Below are positions 28,937 to 46,676 of a stretch of DNA of 64,000 bases, in pieces. Each line of letters opens with the position of its first letter. Within the stretch, counting starts at the first letter, position 1. Source of the DNA: Lachnospiraceae bacterium. GTDB taxonomy: Bacteria > Bacillota > Clostridia > Lachnospirales > Lachnospiraceae. The translations under genes and the position numbers were made by a program. The stretch lies in contig JAILHF010000031.1 in NCBI GenBank assembly GCA_024696005.1, forward strand, positions 1 to 64,000, in the 5' to 3' direction. A model generated the notes under the pieces. The model saw nothing but the letters and a program-made list of their open reading frames with translations. It had not been told where the DNA came from and searched no databases.

Positions 28937-30472
28937 ATGAAAAAACCGATCAACCCCATCCTGAAGATGGACTATCCGGATCCCGATGTGATCCGCGTGG
29001 ACGATACCTATTACATGGTCAGCACGACAATGTACTACATGCCGGGCTGTGTGATCCTGCGCTCTTATAACCTGGCGGACTGGGAGATCCTGGGCTATGT
29101 GTATGACAAGCTCGACGACACCCCCGAGGAGCGCATGGAGCTGGAAAAGACGGAATATGCCGGCGGCATGTGGGCGCCGTCTTTCCGTTATCACAACGGT
29201 GAGTTCTTCATCTTCCTGCTGAGCCACAGCGGCAATGTGAATTATCTCTTCCGCTCGAAGTCGCCGGAAGGTCCCTGGAAAAAGACCGTTGTGGGTGGCG
29301 GGCGTTTTCACGATGCGTCCTTCTTCATCGATGAGGACGGCAGGGCCTATCTGATCCACGGGAATACCGAGATCAGCATTACCGAGCTGAATGCGGAGTA
29401 TTCGGCGCCGAAGAAAGGCGGCCTGGACCGCGTGATCGTCCGTGACGGGCGTGACATCTGGCTGGGCTATGAGGGCTCGCATTTTTACAGGATCGGAAAA
29501 TACTATTACCTCTTCCTGATCGACTGGCCGAAGAACGGGATACGGACGCAGAGCTGTTTCCGCGCGGAAAGTCTGGATGGAGAGTTTACCGGAGGCGAGG
29601 TGCTTTCGGACACCCGCGGGATCGAAGGCCGGGGCGTGGCCCAGGGCGGCATCGTGGACACGCCGGACGGGAAGTGGTTTTCCGTGCTCTTTCAGGACAT
29701 GGGCGCCGTGGGACGCATTCCCGTGCTGCTGCCCGTGAGCTGGAGGGACGATTTCCCGGTCTTCGGCATCGACGGAAAGATCCCGGAGCAGATGGAACTG
29801 AAGAGTACGCGGCCCGGACATAAATACGCGCCGCTTTATGTGTCGGACAGCTTCCTGCCGAAGCCGGAGCTGCCCAAGGATAAGCAGCTGGCCCTGCCCT
29901 GGCAGTGGAACCACCAGCCGGATGACAGGCTGTGGGAGCTTCTTCCCGGAGGCGGGCTTGCGATCACGACCGACAAGATCTGCATCAACCTGACGCATGC
30001 AAGGAATACGCTGACCCAGCGCATGCTCTGGCCGCATTGCGCTGCCGAGGTCACGATCTGCGCGGACGGCCTGCATGACGGAGACATTGCGGGGCTTTGC
30101 GCACTGCAGTACTGCTACGGCATGATCGGGATCGCGCGTGAGGGCGTGCAGTATTATCTGGTACAGATCGTCCGCGGCAACGGGGAAAGGGATCACATGG
30201 CCGCATCCGACCTAATGCCCGGTGACGTGATCGAGCACATCCCGCTGGAAGGTCCCGTGGTCCGCGTCTGTCTTAAAGCGTGCTTCGAGGACGGAAAGGA
30301 TCTGCTGGAATTCAGTTATAAAAAGGGAAATCATGTGGTGAAGCTGGAAACTTCACATAAGATGGAATTCAGACTTGCCCACTTTACGGGCAACCGTTTC
30401 GGTCTGTGCTGCTATTCGACGCGCATGCCGGGCGGAAGGGTGGTGTTCCGCGACTTCGTCTATCACGACTGA
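28937..30472 (+). CDS. GH43 beta-xylosidase / alpha-L-arabinofuranosidase, cytoplasmic
   Basis: A 511-residue enzyme without a signal peptide. The five-bladed propeller carries the three GH43 acids: Asp in YPDPDV (near residue 16), Asp in RFHDASFF (near 127) and Glu in YEGSHFY (near 179). Residues about 310-511 form the beta-sandwich C-terminal domain common in beta-xylosidases of this family. It should trim xylose or arabinose from xylo-oligosaccharides inside the cell. AAGGAG is ideally placed before the ATG. Its end overlaps the convergent AraC gene by ten bases. Specificity between xylose and arabinose cannot be read from sequence. Confidence 0.88.
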   Translation: MKKPINPILKMDYPDPDVIRVDDTYYMVSTTMYYMPGCVILRSYNLADWEILGYVYDKLDDTPEERMELEKTEYAGGMWAPSFRYHNGEFFIFLLSHSGNVNYLFRSKSPEGPWKKTVVGGGRFHDASFFIDEDGRAYLIHGNTEISITELNAEYSAPKKGGLDRVIVRDGRDIWLGYEGSHFYRIGKYYYLFLIDWPKNGIRTQSCFRAESLDGEFTGGEVLSDTRGIEGRGVAQGGIVDTPDGKWFSVLFQDMGAVGRIPVLLPVSWRDDFPVFGIDGKIPEQMELKSTRPGHKYAPLYVSDSFLPKPELPKDKQLALPWQWNHQPDDRLWELLPGGGLAITTDKICINLTHARNTLTQRMLWPHCAAEVTICADGLHDGDIAGLCALQYCYGMIGIAREGVQYYLVQIVRGNGERDHMAASDLMPGDVIEHIPLEGPVVRVCLKACFEDGKDLLEFSYKKGNHVVKLETSHKMEFRLAHFTGNRFGLCCYSTRMPGGRVVFRDFVYHD

Positions 30473-31410: not shown

Positions 31411-31462
31411 CGTTACTCCTGTTTGAAAGGGGCGGTTGCTCAAAAATTGCTAACTGTTGTGC

Positions 31463-31512: not shown

Positions 31513-31550
31513 GAAAAATGCACAAAAAATACAAAAAAAGGAGCGTTCAA

Positions 31551-33047
31551 GTGCAAATAATAAACAAAGCAAAAAATGAGAAGACCGAGGCACGTTTTGG
31601 TGAGAAGGATATGGGGATGCCGTATATAATGGCTAAAGTGAGTCCGCGCATGGGCGTTCTTATGTTGTCCTGTGTATTGGGGCTGGCCGGCTGCGAAGGA
31701 AGCGGTTCGGGAGTGCCTCAGACGACTCCGGCACCCGTAAATGCAGAGGTGACAAGCCCTGCAGAGGATGGAAGCGCTGCAGTTCCGACGGAAAGCGATC
31801 CGGGAACACAAGAGGGAAGCGAAGCCCCGGAGAATGCGGAGGTCCCGATCCTCAGAGATGCCGTAAGGGCAAAGCTCGGCGGTTTCGTGGGCTGCGCAGT
31901 CACCGGCGCCGAGGTGGACGACCCGAAGGTATGGGACATCGTCACCACGCACTTTGAAGCGGTAACATTGGGAAATGAACTGAAGCCCGACGCACTGGTG
32001 GGCTACAGTGTGAGTACCTGCCCCGGAACGGAGACGGCAGAGCTGAACGGCGAGACCCTGATCGTGCCGAAGCTGGATCACTCCCGGGCGGACAAGATCC
32101 TTGATAAGATACTGAAGTGGAACGAAGAAAATCCGGACAGGAAACTGAAGGTCCGGGGGCATGTGCTGGTATGGCACTCCCAGACGCCGGAATGGTTCTT
32201 CCACGTGGACTATGACAAGAATAAAGCTTATGTAAGCGCCGGCGAGATGGACAAAAGGCTGGAATGGTACATCCGCGAAGTGCTTACCTATTACACAGGC
32301 GAGAACAGCAGATACAAAGATCTGTTCTACGGCTGGGATGTAGTGAACGAAGCGATCAGCGACGGGACGGGGACCTACCGCGGCGATGCCGAGAACCCGA
32401 ACGAATCCCTCAGCGAAGACAGACATGGCAGCAATTCCAGCTGGTGGCATGTTTACCAGAGCAACCGCTACATCATAAATGCTTTCAAGTATGCGAATAA
32501 ATATGCTCCGGCGGAATTGGAGCTCTATTATAACGATTACAACGAGTGTGACAGCAGGAAACAGGACGGGATCGTGGAGCTTCTGGAAGCGGTGAAGGCC
32601 GAAGAGGGGCCTCCCGGTGAAGGAACCAGGATCAGCGCCATGGGAATGCAGGGGCACTACGGGATGGAAAGCCCGGACTATAATTCGGTCGCCTCGGCGA
32701 TCAAGCTCTACGCCAGACGGGTGGGAAAGGTACAGCTTACCGAGATCGACGTGAGCGCGAGTGCCGATTATGATCCCGGATCCGCGGATTCGGTGGCGGA
32801 AGAGAACGAAAAGCTGAAGAAACGCTATAATATGCTGTATTATGCGGTCAACAGCGCAAACAATGAAGAGTATGTGACAGTGGAAGGGATTACCTTCTGG
32901 GGGACAGTGGATCATTATTCCTGGCTGCAGTCCCGGTCAAATGTAGGTGGTGGCAACACCACGGGCTTGCCGCAGATGCCCCTGCTTTTCGGGGCGGATT
33001 ACCAGCCCAAGCCCTGCTTTTATGTATTTGCGGACCCGAAACAGTAA
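31551..33047 (+). CDS. GH10 endo-beta-1,4-xylanase lipoprotein
   Basis: About 498 residues. The signal ends in the lipobox GLAGC, followed by a Pro/Thr/Glu-rich spacer, so the enzyme should sit on the outer face of the membrane. The GH10 barrel has GHVLVWHSQTP, the acid/base Glu in DVVNEAI (near residue 267) and the nucleophile in LTEIDV (near 398), then FWGTVDHYSWL. I prefer the GTG at 31551, seven bases after AAAGGAG, although it makes a long N-region before the hydrophobic stretch; ATG 31614 or 31632 are alternatives. It makes the first, extracellular cut of the xylan backbone. The importer genes follow directly. Confidence 0.88.
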   Translation: MQIINKAKNEKTEARFGEKDMGMPYIMAKVSPRMGVLMLSCVLGLAGCEGSGSGVPQTTPAPVNAEVTSPAEDGSAAVPTESDPGTQEGSEAPENAEVPILRDAVRAKLGGFVGCAVTGAEVDDPKVWDIVTTHFEAVTLGNELKPDALVGYSVSTCPGTETAELNGETLIVPKLDHSRADKILDKILKWNEENPDRKLKVRGHVLVWHSQTPEWFFHVDYDKNKAYVSAGEMDKRLEWYIREVLTYYTGENSRYKDLFYGWDVVNEAISDGTGTYRGDAENPNESLSEDRHGSNSSWWHVYQSNRYIINAFKYANKYAPAELELYYNDYNECDSRKQDGIVELLEAVKAEEGPPGEGTRISAMGMQGHYGMESPDYNSVASAIKLYARRVGKVQLTEIDVSASADYDPGSADSVAEENEKLKKRYNMLYYAVNSANNEEYVTVEGITFWGTVDHYSWLQSRSNVGGGNTTGLPQMPLLFGADYQPKPCFYVFADPKQ

Positions 33048-33065
33048 ACAAGGAGCCTCTTGATA

Positions 33066-36002
33066 ATGAAGAACAAGACAAAAACAATCGTAATCGCAGT
33101 TATCGTAGTTGCAGTTCTGCTGGTGATCCTCTGGCCTCGCAAGAAGGTCTACGATTTCCACGAAAAGTATGAAGGCGTCGACCTGACTGCCGAAGTGGAA
33201 GGTGCCGAAAGAAAAGGCACCTATGACAAGTATCTTGCCGGCCATGCGGGGGCCGCGACGCCGTCTTCGGATACCGAAGTGGATATCTTCAGCTATACGG
33301 CCGGCGGTGAGGGTGAAGTCCGTGTGGAAGAGAACTACAACGGATCGAAAGCCCTCTTTACCGATACCAATTCCACGGTCACCTGGAATGTCGACGTTCC
33401 CGAATCCGGCTTCTACAATCTTTACATCGAATATCTTGCGGCGGAGTCGAGAGGCGTGGCCGTCGAGCGTTCCGTTTATATCAATGACGAGATCCCCTTT
33501 GAAGATGCGAAGAGCGTCGAGTTCACCCGTATCTGGACCAACGGCGGCCCGGTAAAGGTGGACAACCAGGGCAACGAGATCCGTCCTACCCAGGTCGAGA
33601 TCTATGACTGGCAGGATACCTGCTTCGAGGATGATATGGGTTATGTTGCGGAGCCTTACCGTTTCTATTTCGAAAAAGGCGCCAACACCATCACGCTGAA
33701 AGCGGAGAATGAGCCGATGGCGATCCGGAAGTTCGTGGTGCAGGGTATCCGTGAGCTTCCTTCCTATGATGAATATGTTTCCGCCCAGCCTTCCGCAGGC
33801 GGGCAGGCTGATTTTGACAAGATCGTGGAAGGCGAGGCCTCCACGAGACGTTCCGAATCTTCTCTCTATGCAAAATACGACCGTTCTTCACCTACGACAC
33901 AGCCCGGCAGCGTGACCATGACCCTGCTTAACTATGTGGGTGGCGATGCATGGCGCAGCAACGGCATGTGGGTGGAATGGGAAGTGGAGATCCCTGAGGA
34001 CGGTTTCTACAATCTGATGTTCAAGGCGCGTCAGAACTATGCCCGCGGCAGCATGAGCAACCGCAAGATCCTGATCGACGGTGAGGTTCCTTTCGAAGAG
34101 CTGAACGAAGTGGGCTTCGCTTTCCTGAATGACTGGGAATGCAAGGAGCTGGCCGATGAGAACGGCACTCCCTTCAATATCTATCTGACCAAGGGTGTCC
34201 ATACCGTTCGCATGGAAGCTACCCTCGGACATCTCGGTGAGCTTCTTTCCGATCTGGAGAGCAGCACTTACCGTCTGAACCAGATCTACCGCCGCATCCT
34301 GGTGTACACCGGTGCGAACCCCGACCAGTATCGTGACTACAAGATCGATACCACCTATCCCGAGATCATCGAGGCCATGGATCTGGAATCCAAGCGTCTT
34401 TTCAAGCTTGTGGATGATCTGACGGCCTACAGCGGACAGAAGGCTGACAACATCGCCACCGCGCAGACCATCGCGCAGCAGCTGGAGCGTTTCGTTGCGA
34501 AGCCCCAGAAGATCACCCTTGAATTCATCGCCTTCAAGGATAACATCACGGCTCTCGGTACCGCTGCATTGAACATGAGCGAGACCAAGCTGGATGTGGA
34601 CTATCTGGAGATCACCGGGACGGGAGTATCCCCTGCCATCGTAAAGAGTAATTTCTTCAAGGCAGCATGGCACGAGATCCGTTCCTTCGTTGCATCCTTC
34701 TTTGTGGATTACAACGCAGTCGGTGATGTGTATACCGGAAGCGACGCGAAGGAAGCCGTTACGGTATGGGTGCTGACCGGACGTGACCAGGGTACCATCC
34801 TGAAGTCCATGATCGATGACGGCTTTACCCCGAATACCGGCGTAAAGGTCAATGTGAAGATCGTCGGCGCGGATGCCCTGCTGAACGCCGTCCTTGCAGG
34901 ACGCGGGCCGGATGTGGTGCTCTCCGTCGGTGCAGACCAGCCTGTCAACTATGCGCTTCGAGGAGCAGCGGAGGATATCACCCAGTTCCCGGATTATAAG
35001 GAAGTACTGAGCCACTATTCGCCCAGCTCTTATGAGCAGTACGGCCTGGACGGCCATATCTACGGCGTGCCCGAGCAGCAGACCTTCAACGTCATGTTCT
35101 ACCGCAAGGACGTGTTGGAAGAGCTTGAGCTGGAAGTGCCCGATACCTGGAAGGAGCTGATCGAGATGCTTCCTACCATTCAGGGCAACAACCTGACCAT
35201 CGGTCTGCCCAGCGCGGCAGGTTCCTCCTCCAGCGCAGGTGCCACCACAGCCGTGGCTTCCAACCAGCCCGACCTGTCCCTGTACTTCACCCTGCTGTAC
35301 CAGTACGGCGGTGATATGTACAATAAAGAAGGCACCAAGACCGCGGTGGATACCGAAGCCGGCATCGCAGCCTTCGATGACACCGTGCGGTTCTTCAACG
35401 ATTACGGCATACCCGTCTACTTCGACTTCGTAAGCCGTTTCCGTTCCGGCGAGATGCCCATCGGTATCATGCCGTATTCGACCTACAACACCCTGATGGT
35501 CTCCGCACCCGAGATCCGAGGTCTTTGGGACTTCACGCTGATCCCCGGTACCGAGAAGCCCGACGGGACCATCGACCGCAGCGCCTTCATCACCGGCAAT
35601 GCCACTATGATGATCGCTACCGACGATGAGCAGAAGAAGCAGAATTCCTGGGAATTTATGAAGTGGTGGGCAAATGCGGATACGCAGGTACGCTTCGGCC
35701 GCGAGATCGAAGCTCTCCTCGGTGCTTCCGCAAGATACAACACCGCAAACAGGGATGCATTCTCCAGACTGTCCTGGAGTGTGGAAGACATAGCGGTACT
35801 CGGAGCACAGTGGGACCAGACCGTTGGTATCCGCGAAGTACCCGGCGGATACTTTACCGGCCGTCACATTGCAAACGCGGTACGTAAGTGCATCAACGAC
35901 AAGGACGATTCGCGTGAGACCATCATCGACTATTCGATCAAGATCGATGAAGAGATCACCAAGAAGCGCCGTGAGTTCGGTATGCCGATCTACGGAGAAT
36001 AA
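33066..36002 (+). CDS. Membrane-anchored large sugar-binding protein (two beta-sandwich domains fused to an SBP domain)
   Basis: A 978-residue protein, about twice the normal length of a sugar-binding protein. An uncleaved-looking hydrophobic helix at 7-25 followed by PRKK, without a lipobox, anchors it. Residues about 35-230 and 255-420 look like two carbohydrate-binding beta-sandwiches with the same layout (VPESGFYNLYIEY and IPEDGFYNLMFKA). A helical part follows. Residues about 570-900 form an extracellular solute-binding domain (VTVWVLTGRDQG, GRGPDVVLSVG, YGVPEQQTFNVMFYRKDVLEEL, SWEFMKWWA). AAGGAG lies ten bases before ATG 33066. The two permeases follow at once, so this is the receptor of that importer, probably for long xylo-oligosaccharides. 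Confidence 0.8.
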   Translation: MKNKTKTIVIAVIVVAVLLVILWPRKKVYDFHEKYEGVDLTAEVEGAERKGTYDKYLAGHAGAATPSSDTEVDIFSYTAGGEGEVRVEENYNGSKALFTDTNSTVTWNVDVPESGFYNLYIEYLAAESRGVAVERSVYINDEIPFEDAKSVEFTRIWTNGGPVKVDNQGNEIRPTQVEIYDWQDTCFEDDMGYVAEPYRFYFEKGANTITLKAENEPMAIRKFVVQGIRELPSYDEYVSAQPSAGGQADFDKIVEGEASTRRSESSLYAKYDRSSPTTQPGSVTMTLLNYVGGDAWRSNGMWVEWEVEIPEDGFYNLMFKARQNYARGSMSNRKILIDGEVPFEELNEVGFAFLNDWECKELADENGTPFNIYLTKGVHTVRMEATLGHLGELLSDLESSTYRLNQIYRRILVYTGANPDQYRDYKIDTTYPEIIEAMDLESKRLFKLVDDLTAYSGQKADNIATAQTIAQQLERFVAKPQKITLEFIAFKDNITALGTAALNMSETKLDVDYLEITGTGVSPAIVKSNFFKAAWHEIRSFVASFFVDYNAVGDVYTGSDAKEAVTVWVLTGRDQGTILKSMIDDGFTPNTGVKVNVKIVGADALLNAVLAGRGPDVVLSVGADQPVNYALRGAAEDITQFPDYKEVLSHYSPSSYEQYGLDGHIYGVPEQQTFNVMFYRKDVLEELELEVPDTWKELIEMLPTIQGNNLTIGLPSAAGSSSSAGATTAVASNQPDLSLYFTLLYQYGGDMYNKEGTKTAVDTEAGIAAFDDTVRFFNDYGIPVYFDFVSRFRSGEMPIGIMPYSTYNTLMVSAPEIRGLWDFTLIPGTEKPDGTIDRSAFITGNATMMIATDDEQKKQNSWEFMKWWANADTQVRFGREIEALLGASARYNTANRDAFSRLSWSVEDIAVLGAQWDQTVGIREVPGGYFTGRHIANAVRKCINDKDDSRETIIDYSIKIDEEITKKRREFGMPIYGE

Positions 36003-36015
36003 GGGGTAAAAGATT

Positions 36016-37005
36016 ATGGCAAAGGAAAACAGCACAACAATTCCGCAGATTCCCGCTACGACAGGGAATGAGACTTACCTGCAGAAATACTTTATGCTTC
36101 GCAAGCATAAGGCCAAGGTTGCATGGAGAAAGGCCAAGATGAACAAGAACTGTTATCTGTTCCTTGCTCCCTATGCGATCCTGTTTGCGATGTTCTATCT
36201 GTTCCCGGTGGCTGCTTCGATCTTTTTCAGCTTTACCTATTATAACGTGCTGCAGCCGCCGCACTTCATCGGGCTCAACAACTACATGAGCCTTCTGCTG
36301 GAAGACGATATCTTCCTGATCGGCGTGAAGAACACGCTGATCATCGCACTGATCACCGGTCCTCTGGGCTATATCATGTCCTTCATCTTTGCCTGGATGA
36401 TCAACGAGCTTCCCCGAATGATCCGAAGCATCGCGGTCGTCATTTTCTACGCGCCGTCGATCGCAGGTAACTGCTTCGTCATCTTCTCCGTATTTTTCCG
36501 CGGTGATGCTTACGGATACGCAAATGCGTTCCTGATGAACCTCGGTATCACGGACAACCCGATCTACTGGTTTACCGATCCCAGATACATGCTTCCGATC
36601 TGCATGGTCGTCATCCTGTGGATGAGTCTGGGTACCGGCTTCCTTTCCTTCGTTGCAGGTCTGCAGGGCGTGGATACCTCCCTCTTCGAAGCCGGCGCCA
36701 TCGACGGTGTGCGCAACCGCTGGCAGGAGCTGTGGTACATCACCCTTCCCAGCATGAAGCCCATGCTGATGTTCGGTGCGGTCATGACCATCACCACTTC
36801 CTTCGGTGTGGCGGACGTGACGATGCAGCTCTGCGGTTTCCCCAGTACGGACTACGCGGCACGTACCATCGTGGCGCACCTGATCGACTACGGTCAGCAG
36901 AGATTCGAGATGGGTTATGCCTGCGCCATCGCGGCCATACTCTTCCTGATGATGATCCTCTGCAACAAGGCGATACAGGCACTGCTCAGACGTGTAGGTA
37001 CCTGA
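36016..37005 (+). CDS. Sugar ABC importer permease 1a (MalF/LplB type)
   Basis: A 329-residue membrane protein with six helices from residue 45 on and a basic cytoplasmic N-terminus. The EAA loop reads EAGAIDGVRNRWQELWYITLP, the docking site for the ATPase. It forms the channel with the next gene. It starts 13 bases after the large binding protein. No ATPase gene occurs in the cluster, so a shared MsmX-like ATPase encoded elsewhere must power it. Confidence 0.87.
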   Translation: MAKENSTTIPQIPATTGNETYLQKYFMLRKHKAKVAWRKAKMNKNCYLFLAPYAILFAMFYLFPVAASIFFSFTYYNVLQPPHFIGLNNYMSLLLEDDIFLIGVKNTLIIALITGPLGYIMSFIFAWMINELPRMIRSIAVVIFYAPSIAGNCFVIFSVFFRGDAYGYANAFLMNLGITDNPIYWFTDPRYMLPICMVVILWMSLGTGFLSFVAGLQGVDTSLFEAGAIDGVRNRWQELWYITLPSMKPMLMFGAVMTITTSFGVADVTMQLCGFPSTDYAARTIVAHLIDYGQQRFEMGYACAIAAILFLMMILCNKAIQALLRRVGT

Positions 37006-37061
37006 TAACAGAAACGTATCAGTGAACGGTTCCGAATAATCTTTAGGAGTAAGGATTGACT

Positions 37062-37967
37062 ATGAGTAAAAAGAAGAAAAACAAAGTGATTGAGGAAAAG
37101 CCTTACAAGAAGCCGCTGATCCGGCGTAGGAAGGCAAACAGATCCATCGGTGGAGATGTGGCTCTGTATATCTTCCTGATCTTGGTGGCGCTGATCATGG
37201 TGTTCCCTCTCGTGTATGCGGTGGAGGCGGCGCTGAAGCCCCTGGATGAGCTGTTTATGTTCCCGCCCAAGGTATTTGCAAGGCGTCCGACCATGAACAA
37301 CTTCGCGGACCTCTTCGTCACGATGGGCAAGGGCTGGGTCACCTTCTCCAGATACCTGTTCAATACCGTGTTCATTACCTTCGTCGGTACCGCGGGTCAC
37401 CTGTTTATCGCATCCATGGCGGCATTCGTGCTTGCAAAGTACGATTTCCCCGGTGCGCAGGGCTTCTTCAGGATCGTTACCACGGCCATGATGTTTAACG
37501 GCTGGGTCACGATGATCCCGAACTATATCCTGATCAGTAAGCTGGGCTGGGTCGACACCTACTGGGCGGTCATCATCCCGGCACTGGCGGCACCCATCGG
37601 ACTGTTCCTGATGAAACAGTTCATGGAAGGTCTGCCGACGGCACTGATCGAAGCGGCCAAGATCGACGGTGCCAATGAATGGACGGTATTCTCCAATATC
37701 GTCATGCCGAACGTAAAACCCGCATGGATGACGCTGATCATCTTCCAGGTGCAGGCACTCTGGAACAACAGAGCATCCATGTACATCTACTCGGAAGAAA
37801 AGAAGCCCATGGTATTCGCGCTTCAGCAGATCCAGGCCGGCGGTATCGCCCGTACCGGTCAGGGCGCGGCGGTGCTGGTGGTGGTCATGATCGTTCCGAT
37901 CCTGATCTTCGTATTTTCCGAGAGCCAGATTCTCGAGACCATGGCGAGCTCGGGTATCAAGGAATAA
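37062..37967 (+). CDS. Sugar ABC importer permease 1b (MalG/YtcP type)
   Basis: A 301-residue membrane protein with six helices. The EAA loop is EAAKIDGANEWTVFSNIVMP and the protein ends ETMASSGIKE, the typical MalG-type tail. ATG 37062 follows AAGGA with six bases of spacing; a TTG at 37056 is in frame but less likely. It pairs with the permease encoded just upstream. Forty-eight bases separate it from the NHL-repeat gene, on the same strand. Confidence 0.87.
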   Translation: MSKKKKNKVIEEKPYKKPLIRRRKANRSIGGDVALYIFLILVALIMVFPLVYAVEAALKPLDELFMFPPKVFARRPTMNNFADLFVTMGKGWVTFSRYLFNTVFITFVGTAGHLFIASMAAFVLAKYDFPGAQGFFRIVTTAMMFNGWVTMIPNYILISKLGWVDTYWAVIIPALAAPIGLFLMKQFMEGLPTALIEAAKIDGANEWTVFSNIVMPNVKPAWMTLIIFQVQALWNNRASMYIYSEEKKPMVFALQQIQAGGIARTGQGAAVLVVVMIVPILIFVFSESQILETMASSGIKE

Positions 37968-38017
37968 GCAGCGTATATTATGTCATTCCGACTTTTTAGG
38001 ATGACCGGAGGGATAGA

Positions 38018-39547
38018 ATGAAAAACAAGATCGTACGGTTAGTGACAACTGCAGCGGTGATGCTGGGAGTGGGGCTTTCGAGCTTTACTTCCGTCAAAGC
38101 GGGGGAAGACAATTATACCTACGTATACGATTACTGGGAAGACGTTCAGGACAGCCCGGATGCTTATACGGTGGCCAGAGTTTTTGATTTTGGAGCTTTG
38201 GGCCTGGACCGCAATCTGATGGCGCCCGAATCCCTCTATGTCAACGGTTCGAAGGTTTATCTCTGCGATACCGGGAATAACCGTATCCTTCTTTTTGACA
38301 GGCCCTCATCGGATGAGCTGATCCTGGAAAAGGAGATCAAGGGCATCAAAGGGGCGGAACCGGAGACCTTTAATGCTCCTTCCGATGTCTCTGTGGATGA
38401 GGAGGGTTATATCTATATTGCCGATCGTGAGAATCACCGCATACTGAAGGCGGATCAGGATCTGAACTATGTTATGGAGTTCACGAGGCCTTCGGATCAG
38501 GCCATCGATGCCGGTATGGATTTCAAACCCGACAAGATCGTTGCCGATACCGCAGGGCGTATTTACTGCGAAGCGTCTGGTATCAACAAGGGACTGCTGA
38601 AATTCGAAAATGACGGCGTTTTTTCCGGTTTTGTGGGAGCTACGCGCGTTTCCTATAATTTTACCGATTACCTCTGGAAGCGGTTCGCTTCCCAGGAGCA
38701 GAGAGCGCAGATGACCTCCTTTGTTCCTACCGAGTACGACAATCTGTATCTTGACCGCGAAGGTTTCATCTATGCCGTTTCCGGCGGCCTGAAGGAAGAG
38801 GATCTGAAAAACGAGACCGTGGACGCCGTACGTAAGCTGAATATGATGGGGTCCGACATCCTGGTCCGCAACGGCGATTATCCCGTCTTCGGTGATCTGT
38901 ACTGGGGCGGCGGCGGCGGTATCACCGGTCCTTCCTACTTCAAGGATGTGACGGTCCTGGACAACGATATCTACATCTGCCTGGACCAGAACCGCGGACG
39001 TCTCTTCGGATATGACGATCAGGGCCGCATGGTGTACGCCTTTGGCGGAAACGGAAACCAGGCGGGCTACTTCCGTAAGCCTGTTTCCATCGAACACATG
39101 GACAACGATCTGCTGGTACTGGATCAGCAGGATTGCACGGTAACGCTCTTTATACCGACTCATTACGGGCAGCTGATCTACGATGCCATGGCACATTTCG
39201 ATGTGGGTGAGTATGACGAAGCTCAGGCCTGCTGGGAAGAAGTAAAGATGCTCAACGGTAACTACTCCCTGGCCTATATCGGTATCGGCCGTTCCCTTCT
39301 GCGTAAGGGGCAGTACAGGGAATCCATGGACTATTTCGAGGTCAAGTACGACGACGAGAATTATTCCAGAGCATATGCACAGTATCGTAAGCAATGGATC
39401 CGGGAACACATCATCACCATCATCCTGATCCTCGTCGTGCTTGCGGTCATACCTCTGACGATCGGCAAGATATTTGCTCTGAAGGAAGAGATTGACAACG
39501 CGGATATCTTCAAGCTGAGAAGAAGACAGGAAAATCAGACAGAGTAA
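38018..39547 (+). CDS. Exported NHL-repeat/TPR protein with C-terminal membrane anchor
   Basis: A 509-residue protein. A signal peptide at 1-29 ends SVKA. NHL-type propeller blades follow (VYLCDTGNNRILLFD, YIYIADRENHRILKAD, IYICLDQNRGRLFGYDDQGRMVYAFGGNG), then a TPR-like pair near 385-450 (YDEAQACWEEVKMLNGNYSL, YRESMDYFEVKY) and one C-terminal helix (IITIILILVVLAVIPL). The body would face outward. NHL propellers bind carbohydrates, peptides or partners. In this operon it may scaffold the importer or bind oligosaccharide; the function is unknown. GGAGG lies eight bases before the ATG. Confidence 0.75.
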   Translation: MKNKIVRLVTTAAVMLGVGLSSFTSVKAGEDNYTYVYDYWEDVQDSPDAYTVARVFDFGALGLDRNLMAPESLYVNGSKVYLCDTGNNRILLFDRPSSDELILEKEIKGIKGAEPETFNAPSDVSVDEEGYIYIADRENHRILKADQDLNYVMEFTRPSDQAIDAGMDFKPDKIVADTAGRIYCEASGINKGLLKFENDGVFSGFVGATRVSYNFTDYLWKRFASQEQRAQMTSFVPTEYDNLYLDREGFIYAVSGGLKEEDLKNETVDAVRKLNMMGSDILVRNGDYPVFGDLYWGGGGGITGPSYFKDVTVLDNDIYICLDQNRGRLFGYDDQGRMVYAFGGNGNQAGYFRKPVSIEHMDNDLLVLDQQDCTVTLFIPTHYGQLIYDAMAHFDVGEYDEAQACWEEVKMLNGNYSLAYIGIGRSLLRKGQYRESMDYFEVKYDDENYSRAYAQYRKQWIREHIITIILILVVLAVIPLTIGKIFALKEEIDNADIFKLRRRQENQTE

Positions 39548-39575
39548 CGATCAAGAACGAAAAGGGTGGACAAGA

Positions 39576-40271
39576 ATGGCTAAAACCAGAACCTATCAGA
39601 AAGAAGAGAGTAAAGAGGAAAAGAGAGCCCGCCGGAGGGAGTGGTTCGCACACTGGGGGAAGACGATGAAATTCGGCTTTTATTGCCTTACCCACCCCCT
39701 GGACGGCTTCTGGAAGCTCACACATGAGCACAGGGGAAGCTATGCTGCGGCGAATACGATCCTGTTCCTTGCGATCTTTACCCGTATCATCAAGCTGAAG
39801 TATACCAGTTTCCTGTTTTTGAACGTATACTGGGAGGATGTCAATATCTTCCTTTACATAGCCAGTATCCTTTTCCCGCTGTCCCTGTGGGTGGTCGGAA
39901 ACTGGGCGCTGACTACGCTGTTTGACGGAAAAGGACGCCTGGGAGACGTTTACATGGGAACCTGCTATGGCATGCTGCCGTATCCGGTGATCCAGCTACC
40001 GCTGATGATCGTAAGTAACTTCGTGACCATCGAGGAAGGACAGTTTTATTCGGTGCTGAGTGTTCTGTCACTGGTATGGTGCCTGATCCTGATCATATGC
40101 GGCATGGGTCAGATACACGCCTACTCGGCAGGAAAAACGATCCTGTTTACGATCGCGTCCATAGCGGCCGTACTGGTAATGATCTTCCTTCTGATGATCT
40201 TCTTCAGTATGGTCACACAGGGTATCGGTTATTTCATCTCCCTGGGCCGTGAGCTGATGTATCGAATGTGA
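39576..40271 (+). CDS. YIP1-family membrane protein
   Basis: A 231-residue protein with a charged N-terminus (to about residue 50) and five hydrophobic helices, including a PYPVIQLPLMIVSNF segment typical of YIP1 domains. YIP1 proteins are known from membrane traffic in eukaryotes; bacterial members have no defined role. It sits between the NHL and DUF5696-like genes with spacings of 28 and 43 bases, so it belongs to the same operon. It may help assemble the neighbouring membrane proteins. Confidence 0.7.
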   Translation: MAKTRTYQKEESKEEKRARRREWFAHWGKTMKFGFYCLTHPLDGFWKLTHEHRGSYAAANTILFLAIFTRIIKLKYTSFLFLNVYWEDVNIFLYIASILFPLSLWVVGNWALTTLFDGKGRLGDVYMGTCYGMLPYPVIQLPLMIVSNFVTIEEGQFYSVLSVLSLVWCLILIICGMGQIHAYSAGKTILFTIASIAAVLVMIFLLMIFFSMVTQGIGYFISLGRELMYRM

Positions 40272-40314
40272 TCCGGCATAGAGACAGGAAAAAGGGCAGA
40301 GGATAGGAGTAGTT

Positions 40315-42954
40315 ATGAGCGAAGAGAACGTAAAGAAGGTAAAAAAGGAAAAGCCGGTGAGAAAAAAAGCACGCGGCGAGGCCAATACGGAGCGTCAGAA
40401 GGCCATCAGGGATTTCCTGAAGAGTCTGATCTTTCCGCTGTGTTTCCTTGCAGTGATCGGGATCGCCGTCTTTGCCATTATCAATCTGGTTAATCCCGAG
40501 GTTGAGAAAAATCCGGTGGTGCCTTACGGTTATGACGGCGAGGTAGAGCCCGTTGTTCTGGAAAACGACCAACTGATCTTCAGCATGGATCCGACCACGA
40601 CTCTTTTTACGGTCACCAAGAAGTCTACCGGCAAGGTATGGTCCTCCTATATCGAGGAAGCGGAAAGTGACAGCAAGGCCCTGTCGGAAGAAAAGGGCCG
40701 CATGCAGTCCAATCTGCTGCTTACCTACAGTATCAAGAGCGGTCTGGAGACCATCTATGATACCAAGCGTTTCAGCGTGGATAACTCCATATACGAGATC
40801 AGCAAAGACGGGGATACCCTGAAGGTGAAGTATACGCTGGGCAAGGTTTCCCGTGAATACATCATGCCTACCGTCATCCGTGTGGCAGAGCTGGATGCAT
40901 ATCGTGATAAGATGGAGAAGAGTGACTCCTCCATGGTCAAGGATATGTATAAGAAATACGATATCAAAAAGCTCAAGAAGGGTGACAACAAGGAAGAACT
41001 CCTGGAAAAGTATCCGGTGCTTGCCACCGATCCCATCTATGTGCTGAAGGCCGATGCGAGAGAAGACCGTAAGAACCGTATCGAGAAGGCTCTGGAGGGA
41101 GCAGGCTATACCTATGATCAGTATCTTGCGGATAAGGAGCTGGACCAGTCCGAATCCGAAGAAGATAACCAGCTCTTTAACGTGGAGATGGATTTCCGCC
41201 TGGACGGAGATGATATGATCGTTGAAGTTCCCCTTGACTCTCTGGAGTACAATGCGGATGCGCCGATCACCCTGCTTTCGCCTCTTCCGTATTTCGGAGC
41301 GGGAAGCAAGGATCAGGAAGGATTCATGCTGGTGCCCGAAGGCGGCGGCGGGATCATCGAATACAATAACGGAAAGATTGCGCAGAACAGCTACTATGCA
41401 AATATGTACGGCTGGGATATGTGCCTGCGCCGCAGATATGTGATCCATAACACCCGGGCTTATTTCAATGCCTACGGACAGTCCACGGAGGACGGATCCT
41501 TCCTCTGCATCATGGAGGATGGTTCTTCCTACGCCTCTGTCAAGGCATCGGTAAGCGGCAAGGTGAATGATTACAACTTTGTTTATGCGGATTACCAGAT
41601 CATCCCGAAGGAGCAGTTCGAGATCTCGGATATGTCCAGTTCGGCTGTGTATTCCTTCCTGCCTTCCCTCCCGGAGGGAGAGAAGCTGGTCCAGAGATAC
41701 CGTTTCATCGATTCTTCCGATTATGTGGACATGGCTTATGCCTACAGGGATTATCTGGAAACGACCTACGGTGAATACATGAGCCTCAATTCCGACGAAA
41801 AGGCTCCCGTGTCCGTAGAGATCCTTGGAGCGGTCGATAAGGTACAGCAGATCCTGGGTGTGCCGGTATCCCTTCCCCTTAAGCTGACTACCTACAAAGA
41901 AGCCGGTGAGATGATCGAAGATATGCAGGGTTCCGACATCGGAAAGATTTCCGTGAAATATACCGGATGGTGCAACGGTGGTGTAAACCAGAAGATCCTG
42001 ACCAGTGTAAATACGATCCCGGCCCTGGGCTCCAAGAAGGACCTTTCGGATCTCGGAACTTCCGCTTCCGGTCTGGGAGTGGATCTGTATCTGGACGGTA
42101 TCACCCAGTACGAGCACCGGAGCAATCTGTTCAACGGCTTTATCTCCTACCGGGATGCGGCCAGACAGCTGACCAAGGAAAGAGCCGAGCTCTTTAATTA
42201 CAGTCATGTGACCTATGCGGCCAGAGAGGGCTTCAAGAGCTATTATCTCCTTCATACCTCTCTTGCCATGACGATGGCGGACAATCTGGTGGCCGCTGCC
42301 AAAACCTACGGTACGGGTGTTTCTTTCCAGGACATCGGTATGGATCTTTCCTCCGATTTCTATCGTAAGGAGACCCACAGCCGTGAGGATACCAAGGCGA
42401 AGAACAAAGAGCTTCTGAAGTCTCTGGATGATAAGAAGATCATGATCAACATGGGAAATGACTATGCGGTTCCCTATGTGGATATGGTGACCAATATGGA
42501 TCTGAAGGGCAGTGAATATACCATCATTGATGAGAATGTTCCGTTCTACCAGATTGCGATCCACGGCTATATCGATTATACCGGCGATCCCATCAATATC
42601 TCCGGCGATGATCAGGAAGAGCTGCTGCGTTGCGTAGAGTACGGAGCCGGCCTGAACTTCACCCTGATGAAGGAAAGCTCCTTCGCCCTGCAAAAGACTC
42701 TTTATACCGAGTATTACGGCTGTGAATATGCAGCCTGGAGAGACCGCATGTTCGAGATGTGCAAGCGTTATAACCGGGAACTGGGCCATTGCTTCAAGCA
42801 GGAAATGAAAGATCACGAGATCCTTTCCCCTTACGTACGTGCCACGACTTATGCGGACGGAACAAAGGTTTATGTGAATTACAGCTTTTCCGAGGATTAT
42901 GTGGCTGAGGATGGTACGAAGGTTCCGGCCCGTGATTATACAGTCGTGCGCTGA
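40315..42954 (+). CDS. DUF5696-like membrane-anchored extracellular protein
   Basis: An 879-residue protein with a lysine-rich cytoplasmic N-terminus, one membrane helix (about 40-62) and a large extracellular part. Residues about 75-480 are beta-rich (FMLVPEGGGGIIEYNNGK). Residues about 510-800 look like a glycosidase-type TIM barrel: LPLKLTTYKEAGEMI, ISVKYTGWCNGGVNQ, VDLYLDGITQYE, FQDIGMDLSSDF. I recognise it as the DUF5696 type found beside sugar importers. No function is established; I infer a sugar-binding or hydrolytic role at the cell surface. No catalytic pair can be named. Permease 2a follows after 33 bases. Confidence 0.68.
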   Translation: MSEENVKKVKKEKPVRKKARGEANTERQKAIRDFLKSLIFPLCFLAVIGIAVFAIINLVNPEVEKNPVVPYGYDGEVEPVVLENDQLIFSMDPTTTLFTVTKKSTGKVWSSYIEEAESDSKALSEEKGRMQSNLLLTYSIKSGLETIYDTKRFSVDNSIYEISKDGDTLKVKYTLGKVSREYIMPTVIRVAELDAYRDKMEKSDSSMVKDMYKKYDIKKLKKGDNKEELLEKYPVLATDPIYVLKADAREDRKNRIEKALEGAGYTYDQYLADKELDQSESEEDNQLFNVEMDFRLDGDDMIVEVPLDSLEYNADAPITLLSPLPYFGAGSKDQEGFMLVPEGGGGIIEYNNGKIAQNSYYANMYGWDMCLRRRYVIHNTRAYFNAYGQSTEDGSFLCIMEDGSSYASVKASVSGKVNDYNFVYADYQIIPKEQFEISDMSSSAVYSFLPSLPEGEKLVQRYRFIDSSDYVDMAYAYRDYLETTYGEYMSLNSDEKAPVSVEILGAVDKVQQILGVPVSLPLKLTTYKEAGEMIEDMQGSDIGKISVKYTGWCNGGVNQKILTSVNTIPALGSKKDLSDLGTSASGLGVDLYLDGITQYEHRSNLFNGFISYRDAARQLTKERAELFNYSHVTYAAREGFKSYYLLHTSLAMTMADNLVAAAKTYGTGVSFQDIGMDLSSDFYRKETHSREDTKAKNKELLKSLDDKKIMINMGNDYAVPYVDMVTNMDLKGSEYTIIDENVPFYQIAIHGYIDYTGDPINISGDDQEELLRCVEYGAGLNFTLMKESSFALQKTLYTEYYGCEYAAWRDRMFEMCKRYNRELGHCFKQEMKDHEILSPYVRATTYADGTKVYVNYSFSEDYVAEDGTKVPARDYTVVR

Positions 42955-42987
42955 CGAAATCAGATAGGATAAAGAGAGGCTTAAACG

Positions 42988-43905
42988 ATGGAAAAATCAA
43001 AGACAAAGAAAAAGCGTTTGGTAGGATTGGAGAAAAGAAAGGCAAGAGCAGGATATCTGTTTATCATGCCCTTCATATTCGGATTCGTGGTCTTTATGGT
43101 GAGGCCTTTCGTGCAGTCTTTGTATATGAGCTTTACCAGTGTGGAGCTGGGTGCGGGCATTTTCAACATGAGCTGGACCGGACTAGCCAATTACTACTAC
43201 TCCTTCCGTACGGATCCCGACTATGTCAGGCTTCTGACGGAGGAACTGCTCCGAATGGTGATCTATTCCTTCGCCATCATCGTGTTCAGCTTCTTTGTAT
43301 CCCTGATCCTGAACCAGAAATTCCAGGGACGTGCCCTGGTGCGTGCGGTCTTCTTTCTGCCGGTCATCCTTTCCTCCGGTGTCATGCTCGGACTGGAGTC
43401 CAATAACCAGCTGATCGAAAACCTGCAGAAGACAGTGGAAACAACGACTTCCGGCATCAGCATCACAGCCGGCCTGCAGACGATCCTGCGAACCACCGGT
43501 GTGGGTACCAGAGCGTTTGAGAAGGTGTTTGAAGTCATCAACAATATCTACGATGTGGCCATGGCCAGCGGTATCCAGATCATCATCTTCCTTTCCGGCC
43601 TGCAGACCATACCCACCAGTATGTATGAGGCGGCACAGATCGAAGGATGTACCGCGTGGGAGAGCCTCTGGAAGGTTACCTTCCCCATGATCAGTTCCCT
43701 GTTCCTGGTAAACTGGGTGTATACGGTAGTAGACTTCTGTATGCGTTCCGATAACCAGGTCATTGATAAGATCCAGGATATGATGGTCGTGAAACAGAAT
43801 TACGGGACAGCATCAGCCATGACCTGGGTGTATTTCGTTGTGGTCATCGCGTTTGTCGGTATCACTTCCTTAGCGATCTCGAAGGGGGTTTATTACAATG
43901 ATTAA
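42988..43905 (+). CDS. Sugar ABC importer permease 2a (MalF/LplB type)
   Basis: A 305-residue protein with six helices and the EAA loop EAAQIEGCTAWESLWKVTFP. The loop before it (about 130-185) is longer than usual, as in several Gram-positive oligosaccharide permeases. It overlaps the next permease by eight bases. It is the second MalF-type subunit in the same operon and is clearly diverged from permease 1a, so a second importer of different specificity is likely. Confidence 0.87.
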   Translation: MEKSKTKKKRLVGLEKRKARAGYLFIMPFIFGFVVFMVRPFVQSLYMSFTSVELGAGIFNMSWTGLANYYYSFRTDPDYVRLLTEELLRMVIYSFAIIVFSFFVSLILNQKFQGRALVRAVFFLPVILSSGVMLGLESNNQLIENLQKTVETTTSGISITAGLQTILRTTGVGTRAFEKVFEVINNIYDVAMASGIQIIIFLSGLQTIPTSMYEAAQIEGCTAWESLWKVTFPMISSLFLVNWVYTVVDFCMRSDNQVIDKIQDMMVVKQNYGTASAMTWVYFVVVIAFVGITSLAISKGVYYND

Positions 43906-44896
43906 TGTGGATATCAAAGAAGATACCTTTTGGGAAAGGAACCGGAAGACCGGCGGTTATCTGCTCCGGAAAAGGGCGACCCAGATCGCGGTAAGCATCT
44001 GCAGGTTCATCCTGCTCTTCGGTATGTGCTTCCTGATCCTGCAGCCGATCCTGAACAAGATCTCCGTCAGCCTGATGACGGAGGAGGATCTGTTCGATCC
44101 CGTCGTGGTTTCCATCCCGCTGCATTTTACGCTGGATAACTACAAGATCGCGGCGGACGTCATGAACTACAAAGTGGGCTTTGTGAATTCCCTTATCATC
44201 TCCCTGACCACATCCCTGATCCAGATCGCGATGTGCACGCTGGTAGGTTACGGATTCGCGCGATTCAAGTTCCCGCTGAAGAAGATGTGGTTTGCCTTTG
44301 TCATGCTGATCATCGTGATCCCGCCTCAGGTCATCTCCACTTCGCTTTTCCTGCGATTCCGTTTCTTTGATATCCTGGGGATCATCAAGATGATCAGGGG
44401 CGAAGCGCTGAACCTCCGCGGTTCCATCATCCCGTATTATCTGATGTGCTTCGGCTGCATGGGATTGAAGGATGGGCTGTATATCTACATGATCCGGCAG
44501 TTCTTCCGTAATATCCCGAATGATATGGAAGAGGCTGCTTATGTGGACGGCTGCGGTATGTTCAAGACCTTTGTAACGATCATGCTTCCGGAAGCAACGC
44601 CCATCATCACCTCCTGCTTCCTGTTCTCCTTTGTATGGCAGTGGACGGACGGCTTCTATGCAGGCATGTTCCTGGGCGGCAGAAGACTGGTAAGTACCAG
44701 CATCTCCTCCATTGTGGACTCTCTGGGTGTTTACATCCAGCGTCTGACGGGTGAGAAGGTTGCGGTTTCCATCGCTTATTCCAACTGCATTTTGTCTACG
44801 GCTACCCTGATGGTGGTGGGCCCGCTGATCATCCTCTATCTCTTCGCCCAGAGAAAGTTTGTGGAGAGTATTGCATCCAGCGGTATCAAGATGTAA
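43898..44896 (+). CDS. Sugar ABC importer permease 2b (MalG/YtcP type)
   Basis: A 332-residue protein with six helices, the EAA loop EAAYVDGCGMFKTFVTIMLP and the MalG-type tail ESIASSGIKM. The start overlaps permease 2a, so the two are made together. The binding-protein gene follows after 144 bases and has its own promoter, which would allow the receptor to be made in excess, as is common. Confidence 0.87.
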   Translation: MINVDIKEDTFWERNRKTGGYLLRKRATQIAVSICRFILLFGMCFLILQPILNKISVSLMTEEDLFDPVVVSIPLHFTLDNYKIAADVMNYKVGFVNSLIISLTTSLIQIAMCTLVGYGFARFKFPLKKMWFAFVMLIIVIPPQVISTSLFLRFRFFDILGIIKMIRGEALNLRGSIIPYYLMCFGCMGLKDGLYIYMIRQFFRNIPNDMEEAAYVDGCGMFKTFVTIMLPEATPIITSCFLFSFVWQWTDGFYAGMFLGGRRLVSTSISSIVDSLGVYIQRLTGEKVAVSIAYSNCILSTATLMVVGPLIILYLFAQRKFVESIASSGIKM

Positions 44897-44900
44897 AAAA

Positions 44901-44933
44901 TGAACAAACTTTGAACAAACTTTGAATAAGTTA
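44901..44933. repeat. Three tandem 11-base repeats ahead of the binding-protein promoter
   Basis: TGAACAAACTT occurs at 44901-44911 and 44912-44922, followed by the weaker copy TGAATAAGTTA at 44923-44933. The third copy abuts the -35 box at 44934. The 11-base period places all copies on one face of the helix, as for an activator or repressor operator. Confidence 0.6.
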
Positions 44934-44962
44934 TTGATTTTTTCGAGAGTCTGCGATACTAT
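44934..44962 (+). promoter_or_regulatory. Internal promoter of the second binding-protein gene
   Basis: TTGATT (44934-44939) and TACTAT (44957-44962) are 17 bases apart, with 78 bases of leader before the ATG at 45041. The tandem 11-base repeats lie immediately upstream. Confidence 0.55.
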
Positions 44963-45040
44963 AAAAACACGGTTACTGCCGGGAGGGCAAAGGGCCCGAA
45001 CGGTTAATGTAAACAACAACAAAATGGAGGGTAGAAAAGT

Positions 45041-46600
45041 ATGAAAAGGAAATTTGTACCGGTTGCTCTCGCTGCTGTGATGGCATTCAACATGGCAGCC
45101 TGCACCAACGGCGGAGATGCTCCTGCAGATCCTACGCCGGCAGATCCCGGAACGGAAACGACTCCGGCTGACCCCGGAACGACCGATCCCGGAACGACCG
45201 ATCCCGGAGCGGAAGAGGACGTTGAGCCCTATACCGTCCGCACCAAGGCAGACGGCAGCCCTATCGATCTGGGCGGCATGGAGATCATCATCCGTGACTG
45301 GTTCTCCAATGCAGAGACCGATATCATGCATGCAGATCCCGACAGCCTGAGCAGCTATGAGGCTGAGATCCGCGAGTATCGTGAGTGGGCACAGGAAAAG
45401 TATAACTTCAAACTGAAGCAGGTTGGTGGTGCTGACTGGGGTCAGTGCATCACTGATTTCGTTAACTACGTTACTTCCGGCGGCGGCCCTCTGGATTATG
45501 AGTATGAGACCGGCGTACCCGAGAAGTGCGAGAACGTGATCTTCACGATCCGTGACGATGCTGCTACCACTGCAGCTATGAGAAACAACGAGATGTATGA
45601 TCTGTCCACTCTGGATTGCCTGGATTTCAGCGATCACAAGTATACCCAGAACAAGCTGCACGAGCAGTACAGCTACAAGGGCGGCATCTACGCTATGTAC
45701 GGCAGCATCTCCGAGCCTCGTGACGGTGTATACTTCAACTATCAGCTGCTGAAGGACGGCGGTCATGAGCCCGATGAGATCTATGATATGCAGAAGAACG
45801 GCACCTGGACCTGGGATGCGTTCGAGCAGATCTGTAAGGATGTTCAGAAGGATACCGATAACGATGGTATCGCTGACGTTGCAGGTTGGACCGCAAACAC
45901 CGGTGGTGCTGTAAATGCATTCATCTACTCCAATGACGGCCAGCTGGTCGGCAGAGATTCCAGTGGTGCTTATGAGCTTCAGGTTACCGATCAGAAGACC
46001 ATTGACGCTCTTGAGTTCGCTAACAGAATGATCAAGGAATATCGTCATAAGGATCCTCAGGTTCAGGGTGAGGACGGAACCATGACCGACGCTCCTTGGG
46101 ATTACTACAAGGATTCCTGGAAGAACGGTGACGCTTGCTTCCTGCTTGAGCAGGAGTATGCAGGTACTCCCGGTAACTTCCTTGCTGACATCACCTTCGA
46201 TGCAGGCTTCGTAATGATGCCTAAGGGACCCGCTGCTAAGGATCTGGTTAACTGCTGGAGCAACAACCCTGCTGTTATCCCTGCATGCTACACTCCTGAG
46301 CAGGCTTGGAACATCGCATTCGCATATGATGTATGGTTCGAGGTTCCGCCCGAGATCGAGGAAGAGAACAGCATCGTATCCCGTGCCCGTTCCGGTATCT
46401 TCGATGACAGAGCGCTGGATGAGACCCTTCCTATGATGAGCGAAGAGAAGCACGGTATGATCACCTACGGCGGAATGATCCCCGAGCTGGAGACCGGCCC
46501 CGACCTGATCTGGAGTATCAACGGCGATGCAAAGGTTTCCGAGCTGGTTGATGCGATCAAGGATAAGTGGAAAGAGAAGGTTGACGCTGCGAACAACTAA
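45041..46600 (+). CDS. Sugar-binding lipoprotein of importer 2
   Basis: A 519-residue lipoprotein with lipobox MAAC near residue 21 and a Pro/Asp/Gly/Thr repeat spacer (PADPGT, TDPGTTDPG) to about residue 60. The rest is an extracellular solute-binding fold (MEIIIRDWFSN, LKQVGGADWG, GTWTWDAFEQICKDV, PWDYYKDSWKNGDACFLLEQEY). GGAGG lies about ten bases before the ATG. Codon use leans to strongly expressed genes, and it has its own promoter. A terminator follows, closing the importer cluster. It is the receptor for permeases 2a and 2b. Confidence 0.85.
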   Translation: MKRKFVPVALAAVMAFNMAACTNGGDAPADPTPADPGTETTPADPGTTDPGTTDPGAEEDVEPYTVRTKADGSPIDLGGMEIIIRDWFSNAETDIMHADPDSLSSYEAEIREYREWAQEKYNFKLKQVGGADWGQCITDFVNYVTSGGGPLDYEYETGVPEKCENVIFTIRDDAATTAAMRNNEMYDLSTLDCLDFSDHKYTQNKLHEQYSYKGGIYAMYGSISEPRDGVYFNYQLLKDGGHEPDEIYDMQKNGTWTWDAFEQICKDVQKDTDNDGIADVAGWTANTGGAVNAFIYSNDGQLVGRDSSGAYELQVTDQKTIDALEFANRMIKEYRHKDPQVQGEDGTMTDAPWDYYKDSWKNGDACFLLEQEYAGTPGNFLADITFDAGFVMMPKGPAAKDLVNCWSNNPAVIPACYTPEQAWNIAFAYDVWFEVPPEIEEENSIVSRARSGIFDDRALDETLPMMSEEKHGMITYGGMIPELETGPDLIWSINGDAKVSELVDAIKDKWKEKVDAANN

Positions 46601-46630
46601 GCAGCTCAGGACTTCGCCAAATAAGCATTA

Positions 46631-46676
46631 AAAGTATCCCCTCGTGCGACAAGGGTCCGCGGGGGGGTATTTTTTG
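46631..46676 (+). terminator. Terminator after the binding-protein gene
   Basis: AAAGTA-T-CCCC pairs with GGGG-TATTTTT, with one bulged T, around a GC-rich interior, and is followed by further T. It lies 30 bases after the stop and separates the importer cluster from the export genes. Confidence 0.5.

Follow-up and report, generated by a model that had tools for sequence, protein, structure and literature searches.

In a 64,000-nucleotide stretch of DNA from a Lachnospiraceae bacterium (GenBank assembly GCA_024696005.1, contig JAILHF010000031.1, positions 1 to 64,000; the whole stretch is called the window here), nine co-directional genes on the + strand occupy positions 33066-46600. In order, they encode a large solute-binding protein (SBP1), two permeases (A1 and B1), a protein with NHL and TPR domains (NHL/TPR), a YIP1-domain protein (YIP1), a DUF5696 protein, a second permease pair (A2 and B2) and a second solute-binding protein (SBP2). 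Here, we show that this nine-gene cassette is a real, widespread and conserved unit. The cassette recurs in many fibre-degrading bacteria and probably encodes an undescribed surface complex for pieces of plant polysaccharide. It is undescribed as far as the literature was searched: searches of the open literature, outside which most subscription papers lie, found no paper on the cassette, none with the word DUF5696 and no assigned role for the NHL/TPR, YIP1 or DUF5696 accessories, and a term search of a paper on A. bescii importers (PMC12838199) gave no match.

We consider it probable that the cassette is a membrane-bound uptake station, composed of a twin CUT1 importer, a scaffold and a mostly non-catalytic glycosidase-fold protein, that takes up oligosaccharides freed from plant cell-wall polysaccharides. 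Its two CUT1-type importers, SBP1-A1B1 and SBP2-A2B2, would both use an MsmX/UgpC-type ATPase encoded elsewhere. SBP1, tethered by its N-terminal transmembrane segment, would hold the chain near the membrane through its beta-sandwich domains, and NHL/TPR (propeller outside, one transmembrane segment) would form with the multi-pass YIP1 a scaffold keeping the importers together. DUF5696, tethered outside, would bind or orient the chain without cutting it, and the substrate would vary between copies. More tentatively, the two ATP-binding cassette (ABC) importers may be permanently joined by the propeller-TPR-YIP1 scaffold and the pseudo-glycosidase into one machine for long polysaccharide fragments. 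This new importer architecture would be the monoderm counterpart of Sus-type uptake, with SBP1-A1-B1 as its conserved engine and DUF5696-A2-B2-SBP2 as the half that is adapted to the substrate. If the accessories and both importers do form one complex, the view of long-oligosaccharide uptake by monoderm fibre degraders would change, and a function would be gained for DUF5696 and for a bacterial YIP1 group.

Conservation of the cassette

A search with the DUF5696 profile (PF18952) covered 398 genomes of the phylum. The profile matched 46 genomes at E<=0.001 and 39 above its cut-off, 37 of them strongly (E<=1e-140) and the other two barely. Strong matches to the window NHL/TPR protein (E<=1e-35) occur in exactly these 37 genomes, with only weak, generic NHL matches (E from 3e-18) in 44 further ones. 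SBP1 was found at E<=1e-100 in all 37 and in three genomes without DUF5696, where a contig ends inside the cassette (L187-L189); in five others, the match is confined to the SBP domain of SBP1. The survey took in DUF5696, NHL/TPR and SBP1, with no more than two or three candidates scored in each genome, which makes the copy numbers lower bounds.

Among public contigs, with one genome per species, at least 569 pattern-matched stretches (of 593 matches) encode DUF5696 relatives. The best 80 of these matches were fetched with their surroundings and 71 were kept as distinct, comprising 38 from Paenibacillaceae, 16 from Lachnospiraceae, 6 from Bacillaceae, one each from Caldicoprobacteraceae, Clostridiaceae and Spirochaetaceae, and 8 that are unplaced. 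Altogether, 136 DUF5696 loci were examined (the 80 public-contig loci, 55 others and the window), of which 127 are distinct by their C-terminal 350 residues; neighbours were marked by profiles made from the window proteins.

In the 80 public-contig loci and the 56 more, the neighbourhood of DUF5696 is the cassette wherever the contig allows. Among the 127 distinct loci, NHL/TPR is found in 125, YIP1 in 126 and two permeases directly downstream in 123, and the six loci that lack any of these (L036, L038, L049, L055, L107 and L156) are all cut by contig ends. SBP1 lies somewhere in the stretch in 104 loci, the upstream permease pair in 98 and SBP2 in 101, the last mostly upstream in Paenibacillaceae and downstream in Lachnospiraceae. 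The whole order SBP1-A1-B1-NHL/TPR-YIP1-DUF5696-A2-B2 is found in Paenibacillaceae, Bacillaceae, Lachnospiraceae and Caldicoprobacter; one Spirochaetaceae metagenome-assembled genome has the core. Because 94 of the 127 loci have this full order and no accessory core is incomplete except at contig ends, chance grouping is excluded. The upstream permease pair is missing from 29 loci: seven have SBP1 and permeases downstream (L046, L050-L052, L068, L070 and L077), eight are cut by contig ends and 14 lack SBP1-A1-B1 throughout the fetched stretch. A plasmid search for DUF5696 returned two records. The cassette gene order is also seen in the annotated records of Butyrivibrio fibrisolvens pNP243 and of a Paenibacillus cellulosilyticus plasmid, the latter with NHL/TPR and YIP1 as one protein.

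The first-pass annotation of this DNA had proposed that two importers and the three accessory types belong together, and the five protein types indeed constitute one inherited unit, in the 127 loci as in the shared 37 of 398 genomes for DUF5696 and NHL/TPR. The opposite picture, in which accessories mostly stand without importers, is rejected for these orthologues, NHL and Yip1 being large families at large. The four DUF5696 loci without downstream permeases lie at contig edges, and among 16 further NHL/TPR places fetched from the 398-genome survey (L171-L186), 13 share their cluster with DUF5696, which directly adjoins NHL/TPR in 12 of them, two have a contig edge inside the cassette (L184 and L186), and one stands alone. 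The order in L172 is DUF5696-A-B-NHL/TPR=YIP1, the last two in one open reading frame (ORF).

All eight core genes are present in 96 loci; in 46 of these, mean pairwise identity is.60 for A1,.59 for B1,.47 for B2,.46 for A2,.45 for SBP1,.42 for YIP1,.40 for NHL/TPR and.34 for DUF5696. Conservation is highest in the permeases of the first importer and lowest in DUF5696, and the second half, DUF5696-A2-B2-SBP2, may be adapted to the substrate.

The core seems amplified in five small genomes of 2-3 Mb (G062, G082, G040, G135 and G165), each with 9-22 preliminary DUF5696 candidates, 3 of which were scored. For G062, the six cores read (L035, L040, L072, L172, L181 and L190) compare with four SBP1 matches. 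About four consecutive SBP2-type genes lie downstream of permease B2 in L069 and L073.

The twin importer and its scaffold candidates

The CUT1 features present in the cassette are an SBP_bac_8-type SBP and, for each importer, two BPD_transp_1 permeases with an EAA loop. BPD_transp_1 scores above its cut-off in all four window permeases (5.7e-11, 3.4e-15, 9.8e-07 and 5.9e-10), and the Glu and Gly of the EAA loop are kept in >95% of the permeases sampled from all four classes (26, 26, 32 and 32 sequences). In a FastTree phylogeny of 474 permeases (98 A1, 98 B1, 123 A2, 123 B2 and 32 others from the same stretches), each position has one best clade, with Jaccard indices of.92 for A1,.93 for B1,.98 for A2 and.98 for B2. 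One A1 and one B2 fall off their clades, and 15 of the 32 other permeases sit inside the four clades, as expected where SBP1-A1-B1 lies downstream. Since the four positions form nearly exclusive clades, the twin importer is, by this phylogeny, old; independent recruitment of two importers is rejected on this tree. No ATPase gene is present within the nine-gene cluster, and a UgpC-like ATPase (44% match) is encoded elsewhere in the window's genome, away from the cluster; in P. cellulosilyticus, such an ATPase directly adjoins the cassette.

SBP1 matches SBP_bac_8 (1.4e-25), as do 33 of 33 homologues. Its AlphaFold2 model (predicted local distance difference test, pLDDT, 87.6) consists of a transmembrane helix, two mainly-beta domains (~72-228 and ~253-387), a helical domain and the C-terminal SBP domain, which resembles SBPs for oligosaccharides, among them the beta-1,2-glucan SBP 5ysb. 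The two beta domains resemble the sandwiches of CBM35 and Golvesin_C. They are called carbohydrate-module-like only, because matches to CBM_35 (9 of 33 homologues) and Golvesin_C (22 of 33) are weak, falling below the cut-offs in the window protein. Since these two domains follow an N-terminal transmembrane segment and precede the binding domain, SBP1 could keep a chain close to the membrane. No Pfam family matches the product of the last gene, which is taken as a second SBP because of its lipoprotein-like N-terminus and its match to the arabino-oligosaccharide-binding protein 6rjy (E 2.6e-06).

Hydropathy, from which the topology of all cassette proteins is predicted, gives NHL/TPR a hydrophobic N-terminus, one C-terminal transmembrane segment (459-490) and a short tail. 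Its NHL propeller (Pfam 3.2e-10; NHL repeats in 35 of 35 members) is followed by a TPR region that scores below the Pfam cut-off. YIP1 matches Yip1 (PF04893; 1e-11, 45.4 bits against a cut-off of 28.6) and has several predicted transmembrane segments. NHL/TPR and YIP1 lie in one ORF in 54 of the 127 loci, and on a FastTree phylogeny of DUF5696 the fused and split states have changed at least six times. These fusions are the best hint of contact between cassette proteins, and the idea of an assembly fits with their presence in 54 loci.

Several observations weigh against an assembled uptake station. In 14 loci (7 genomes, two families) the upstream sequence is readable and SBP1-A1-B1 is not beside the core, although these 7 genomes do carry SBP1 elsewhere. 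A partial, weakly matching NHL/TPR-like gene (L185:7685-8536, genome G243) runs off the end of its contig, and the 7.7 kb 3' of it contain no YIP1 and no DUF5696. The P. cellulosilyticus copy is surrounded by flavin oxidoreductases instead of glycosidases, and synteny can come from co-regulation alone. The two CUT1 importers might be ordinary ones, each for a different product of the same polysaccharide, co-transcribed with separately acting accessories and forming no complex. The 14 detached cores favour this account, and the SBPs and permeases do resemble normal CUT1 parts. We regard it nonetheless as rather unlikely, given an order kept from Paenibacillaceae to Caldicoprobacter with the core even in a spirochaete genome, the NHL/TPR=YIP1 fusions, and the finding of SBP1 without DUF5696 only in the three contig-cut genomes, lone A2-B2 pairs not having been searched for.

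DUF5696 and the GH129 fold

The window DUF5696 protein (Pfam 3.8e-185) has a predicted N-terminal transmembrane segment (30-64) and a large domain with a fold like that of glycoside hydrolase (GH) family 129. In colinear pieces, the DUF5696 profile aligns with ZgGH129 (E 9e-10) and with NagBb (E 2e-05), and the best Foldseek match of the AlphaFold2 model (pLDDT 86.2) is GH129 (5opq, E 1.6e-33, TM-score by target 0.67); the TM-score by target against 5wzn is 0.70-0.72, with GH101, GH36 and others next. The predicted fold is that of GH129, while Pfam Glyco_hydro_129 (PF11308) was not among the families listed at E<=1 for 34 DUF5696 members and the presumed catalytic pair is not conserved.

Catalytic positions were mapped with hhalign against a two-sequence GH129-type profile from Paenibacillaceae genomes (E 5.7e-05, probability 66%), which places window D673 opposite the second Asp of FxDxD and N712 opposite the Glu of GSExGND. 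The two motifs presumably hold the nucleophile and the acid/base, because of their pattern, their invariance in both GH129 proteins and earlier work on GH129. PDB titles name D486 for ZgGH129, which could not be placed directly on DUF5696. Among the 127 DUF5696 sequences, D673 is present in 72, including the window, and E712 in 18; residues 669-676 lack any acid in 43 and residues 709-714 in 77. The Asp of NagBb (5wzn) that is lost in the mutant 5wzq corresponds to T550 of the window, and D occurs at 550/551 in 1 of 127. DUF5696 is most likely a mostly non-catalytic GH129-fold protein that binds or orients the chain.

The alternative is that DUF5696 is an active membrane-bound glycoside hydrolase, trimming chains before import with GH129-type residues in some copies and other residues elsewhere. 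The non-catalytic assignment faces several difficulties here: the mapping rests on a two-sequence profile with the first FxDxD Asp opposite a gap; 8 of the 127 sequences keep both D673 and E712, and 20 have D673 with D or E at 712; and a different mechanism could use the strongly conserved acids D681 (116/127), D739 (114/127) and E775 (123/126). Together with the fold, these residues argue for activity. We judge an active GH129-type enzyme unlikely, however, since the catalytic positions are variable, and the trimming step envisaged by the first-pass annotation loses its basis: only 22 of the 127 sequences have an acid in each of the two inferred catalytic stretches, and the window protein is not one of them.

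It is still less probable that NHL/TPR, YIP1 and DUF5696, instead of serving as a capture scaffold, act as a unit that senses glycans and gates or regulates the importers: the propeller, transmembrane segment and tail do have a receptor-like layout by hydropathy, but Pfam finds neither a kinase nor any other output domain among the cassette proteins, and LacI-type proteins among the flanking genes suggest that regulation is often supplied separately.

Searches for GH129 relatives gave one weak match among plasmids, none in viral contigs, none in 199 genomes of the phylum in a search with no control signal, and two in 28 genomes reached from 30 cassette loci. Lipoprotein-like GH129 relatives occur in two Paenibacillaceae genomes (L168:1363-3672 and L169:289-2616), the former weakly like solved GH129 structures.

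Substrate of the cassette

In the window, GH10 and GH43 genes precede the cassette and GH115 and UxuA genes follow it, and for this reason the local substrate is probably glucuronoxylan fragments. Around other copies, up to two nearest ORFs of >=230 aa were taken on each side; 216 of 367 flank ORFs were scanned, and 76 of the 80 public-contig loci had any. Counts cover the 25 commonest families per set and are not independent, several Paenibacillus loci being orthologous. Among the 216 flank proteins, the glycosidase families shown most often are GH26, with 15, GH43, with at least 10, and GH53, with 8; GH10, GH9 and GH2 have 3 each in one flank set; LacI-type sensor domains occur in 33 of the 82 upstream flank proteins scanned. 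Window-type GH43, GH115 and UxuA genes lie near none of the 80 public-contig loci, GH10 near 3 and GDSL near 1. Because copies adjoin differing GH families, the cassette appears to serve several plant polysaccharides, and glucuronoxylan specificity of the whole system is rejected. Of the original proposal of capture, trimming and uptake of glucuronoxylan fragments, the outline of importers acting with accessories as one unit thus stands, glucuronoxylan holds only locally, and trimming does not.

The P. cellulosilyticus plasmid carries a divergent copy of the cassette (L167:6624-31890). Its neighbours are a UgpC ATPase, aldo/keto reductases, two more SBPs and four LLM-class flavin-dependent oxidoreductases, and they hint at a substrate other than a plain polysaccharide.

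Relation to known systems

Sus-type uptake in Bacteroidota proceeds by surface capture and then uptake, with non-catalytic glycan-binding partners. The cassette resembles it in this idea, whereas no SusC/SusD-type Pfam family is found among its proteins and import would be driven by ABC transporters. Gram-positive polysaccharide utilisation loci place an ABC importer beside glycosidases and LacI/AraC-type regulators; the cassette likewise lies near glycosidases and LacI-type proteins, but its twin importer with three accessories is undescribed in the literature searched. According to the available passages of PMC5730181, MsmX powers several B. subtilis importers of this kind (AraNPQ, CycB-GanPQ and YtcQP-YteP), which, as proposed for the cassette, combine an SBP with two membrane subunits, share an ATPase encoded elsewhere and take up plant cell-wall oligosaccharides. 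In those passages each has one permease pair and no NHL/TPR, YIP1 or DUF5696 partner, whereas in the cassette two pairs are inherited together with three accessories and a tethered SBP of 978 aa. DUF5696 has its fold and colinear weak sequence matches in common with GH129 glycosidases (NagBb, 5WZN; ZgGH129, 5OPQ), enzymes treated in PMC8106489 and PMC6923384. It differs from them in its predicted membrane anchor, its place in a transporter cassette and the usual absence of the inferred catalytic pair.

Organization of the window locus

Gene order, shared direction and gene types of the cluster agree with the first reading of the sequence, and Pfam names all of its proteins but the last (Table 1); no window cassette protein scores above NCBIfam cut-offs. 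The first eight genes are separated by gaps of 13-56 nt, or overlap by 8 nt (A2/B2), and SBP2 starts 144 nt beyond B2. A TTG at 33060 precedes the first ATG of SBP1, which itself lies 18 nt after the end of the GH10 gene; B1 starts at a TTG, with its first ATG at 37062. Promoter-like (18 against 14.4 in shuffles, sd 3.6) and terminator-like sites (22 against 13.4, sd 3.7) in 30400-47100 are of no use for setting operon limits.

Table 1. Genes of the window cassette and two genes ahead of it
Feature	Coordinates	Strand	Size or start	Basis or remark
GH43 beta-xylosidase-type enzyme	28937..30472	+		Pfam; local substrate clue
GH10 xylanase	31518..33047	+		Pfam, sequence; outside the conserved cassette; local substrate clue
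SBP1	33066..36002	+	978 aa from ATG	Pfam, hydropathy, AlphaFold2 model, start codon
Permease A1, BPD_transp_1	36016..37005	+		Pfam; own clade in permease tree
Permease B1, BPD_transp_1	37056..37967	+	TTG 37056	Pfam, translation; own clade
NHL/TPR protein	38018..39547	+		Pfam, hydropathy
YIP1-domain multi-pass membrane protein (predicted)	39576..40271	+		Pfam, fusion count
DUF5696 protein	40315..42954	+		Pfam, hydropathy, AlphaFold2, Foldseek, residue counts
Permease A2, BPD_transp_1	42988..43905	+		Pfam; own clade
Permease B2, BPD_transp_1	43898..44896	+		Pfam; own clade
SBP2, putative lipoprotein-like solute-binding protein	45041..46600	+		N-terminus and 6rjy match

Beyond the cassette, at 46859-54545, lies a separate, exporter-like gene set by Pfam, encoding a biotin-lipoyl-like (adaptor-type) protein, a 718-aa protein, an FtsX-type permease and an ABC ATPase. 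It is followed at 54647-56529 by genes for two proteins of 319 and 304 aa with no Pfam family above cut-off.

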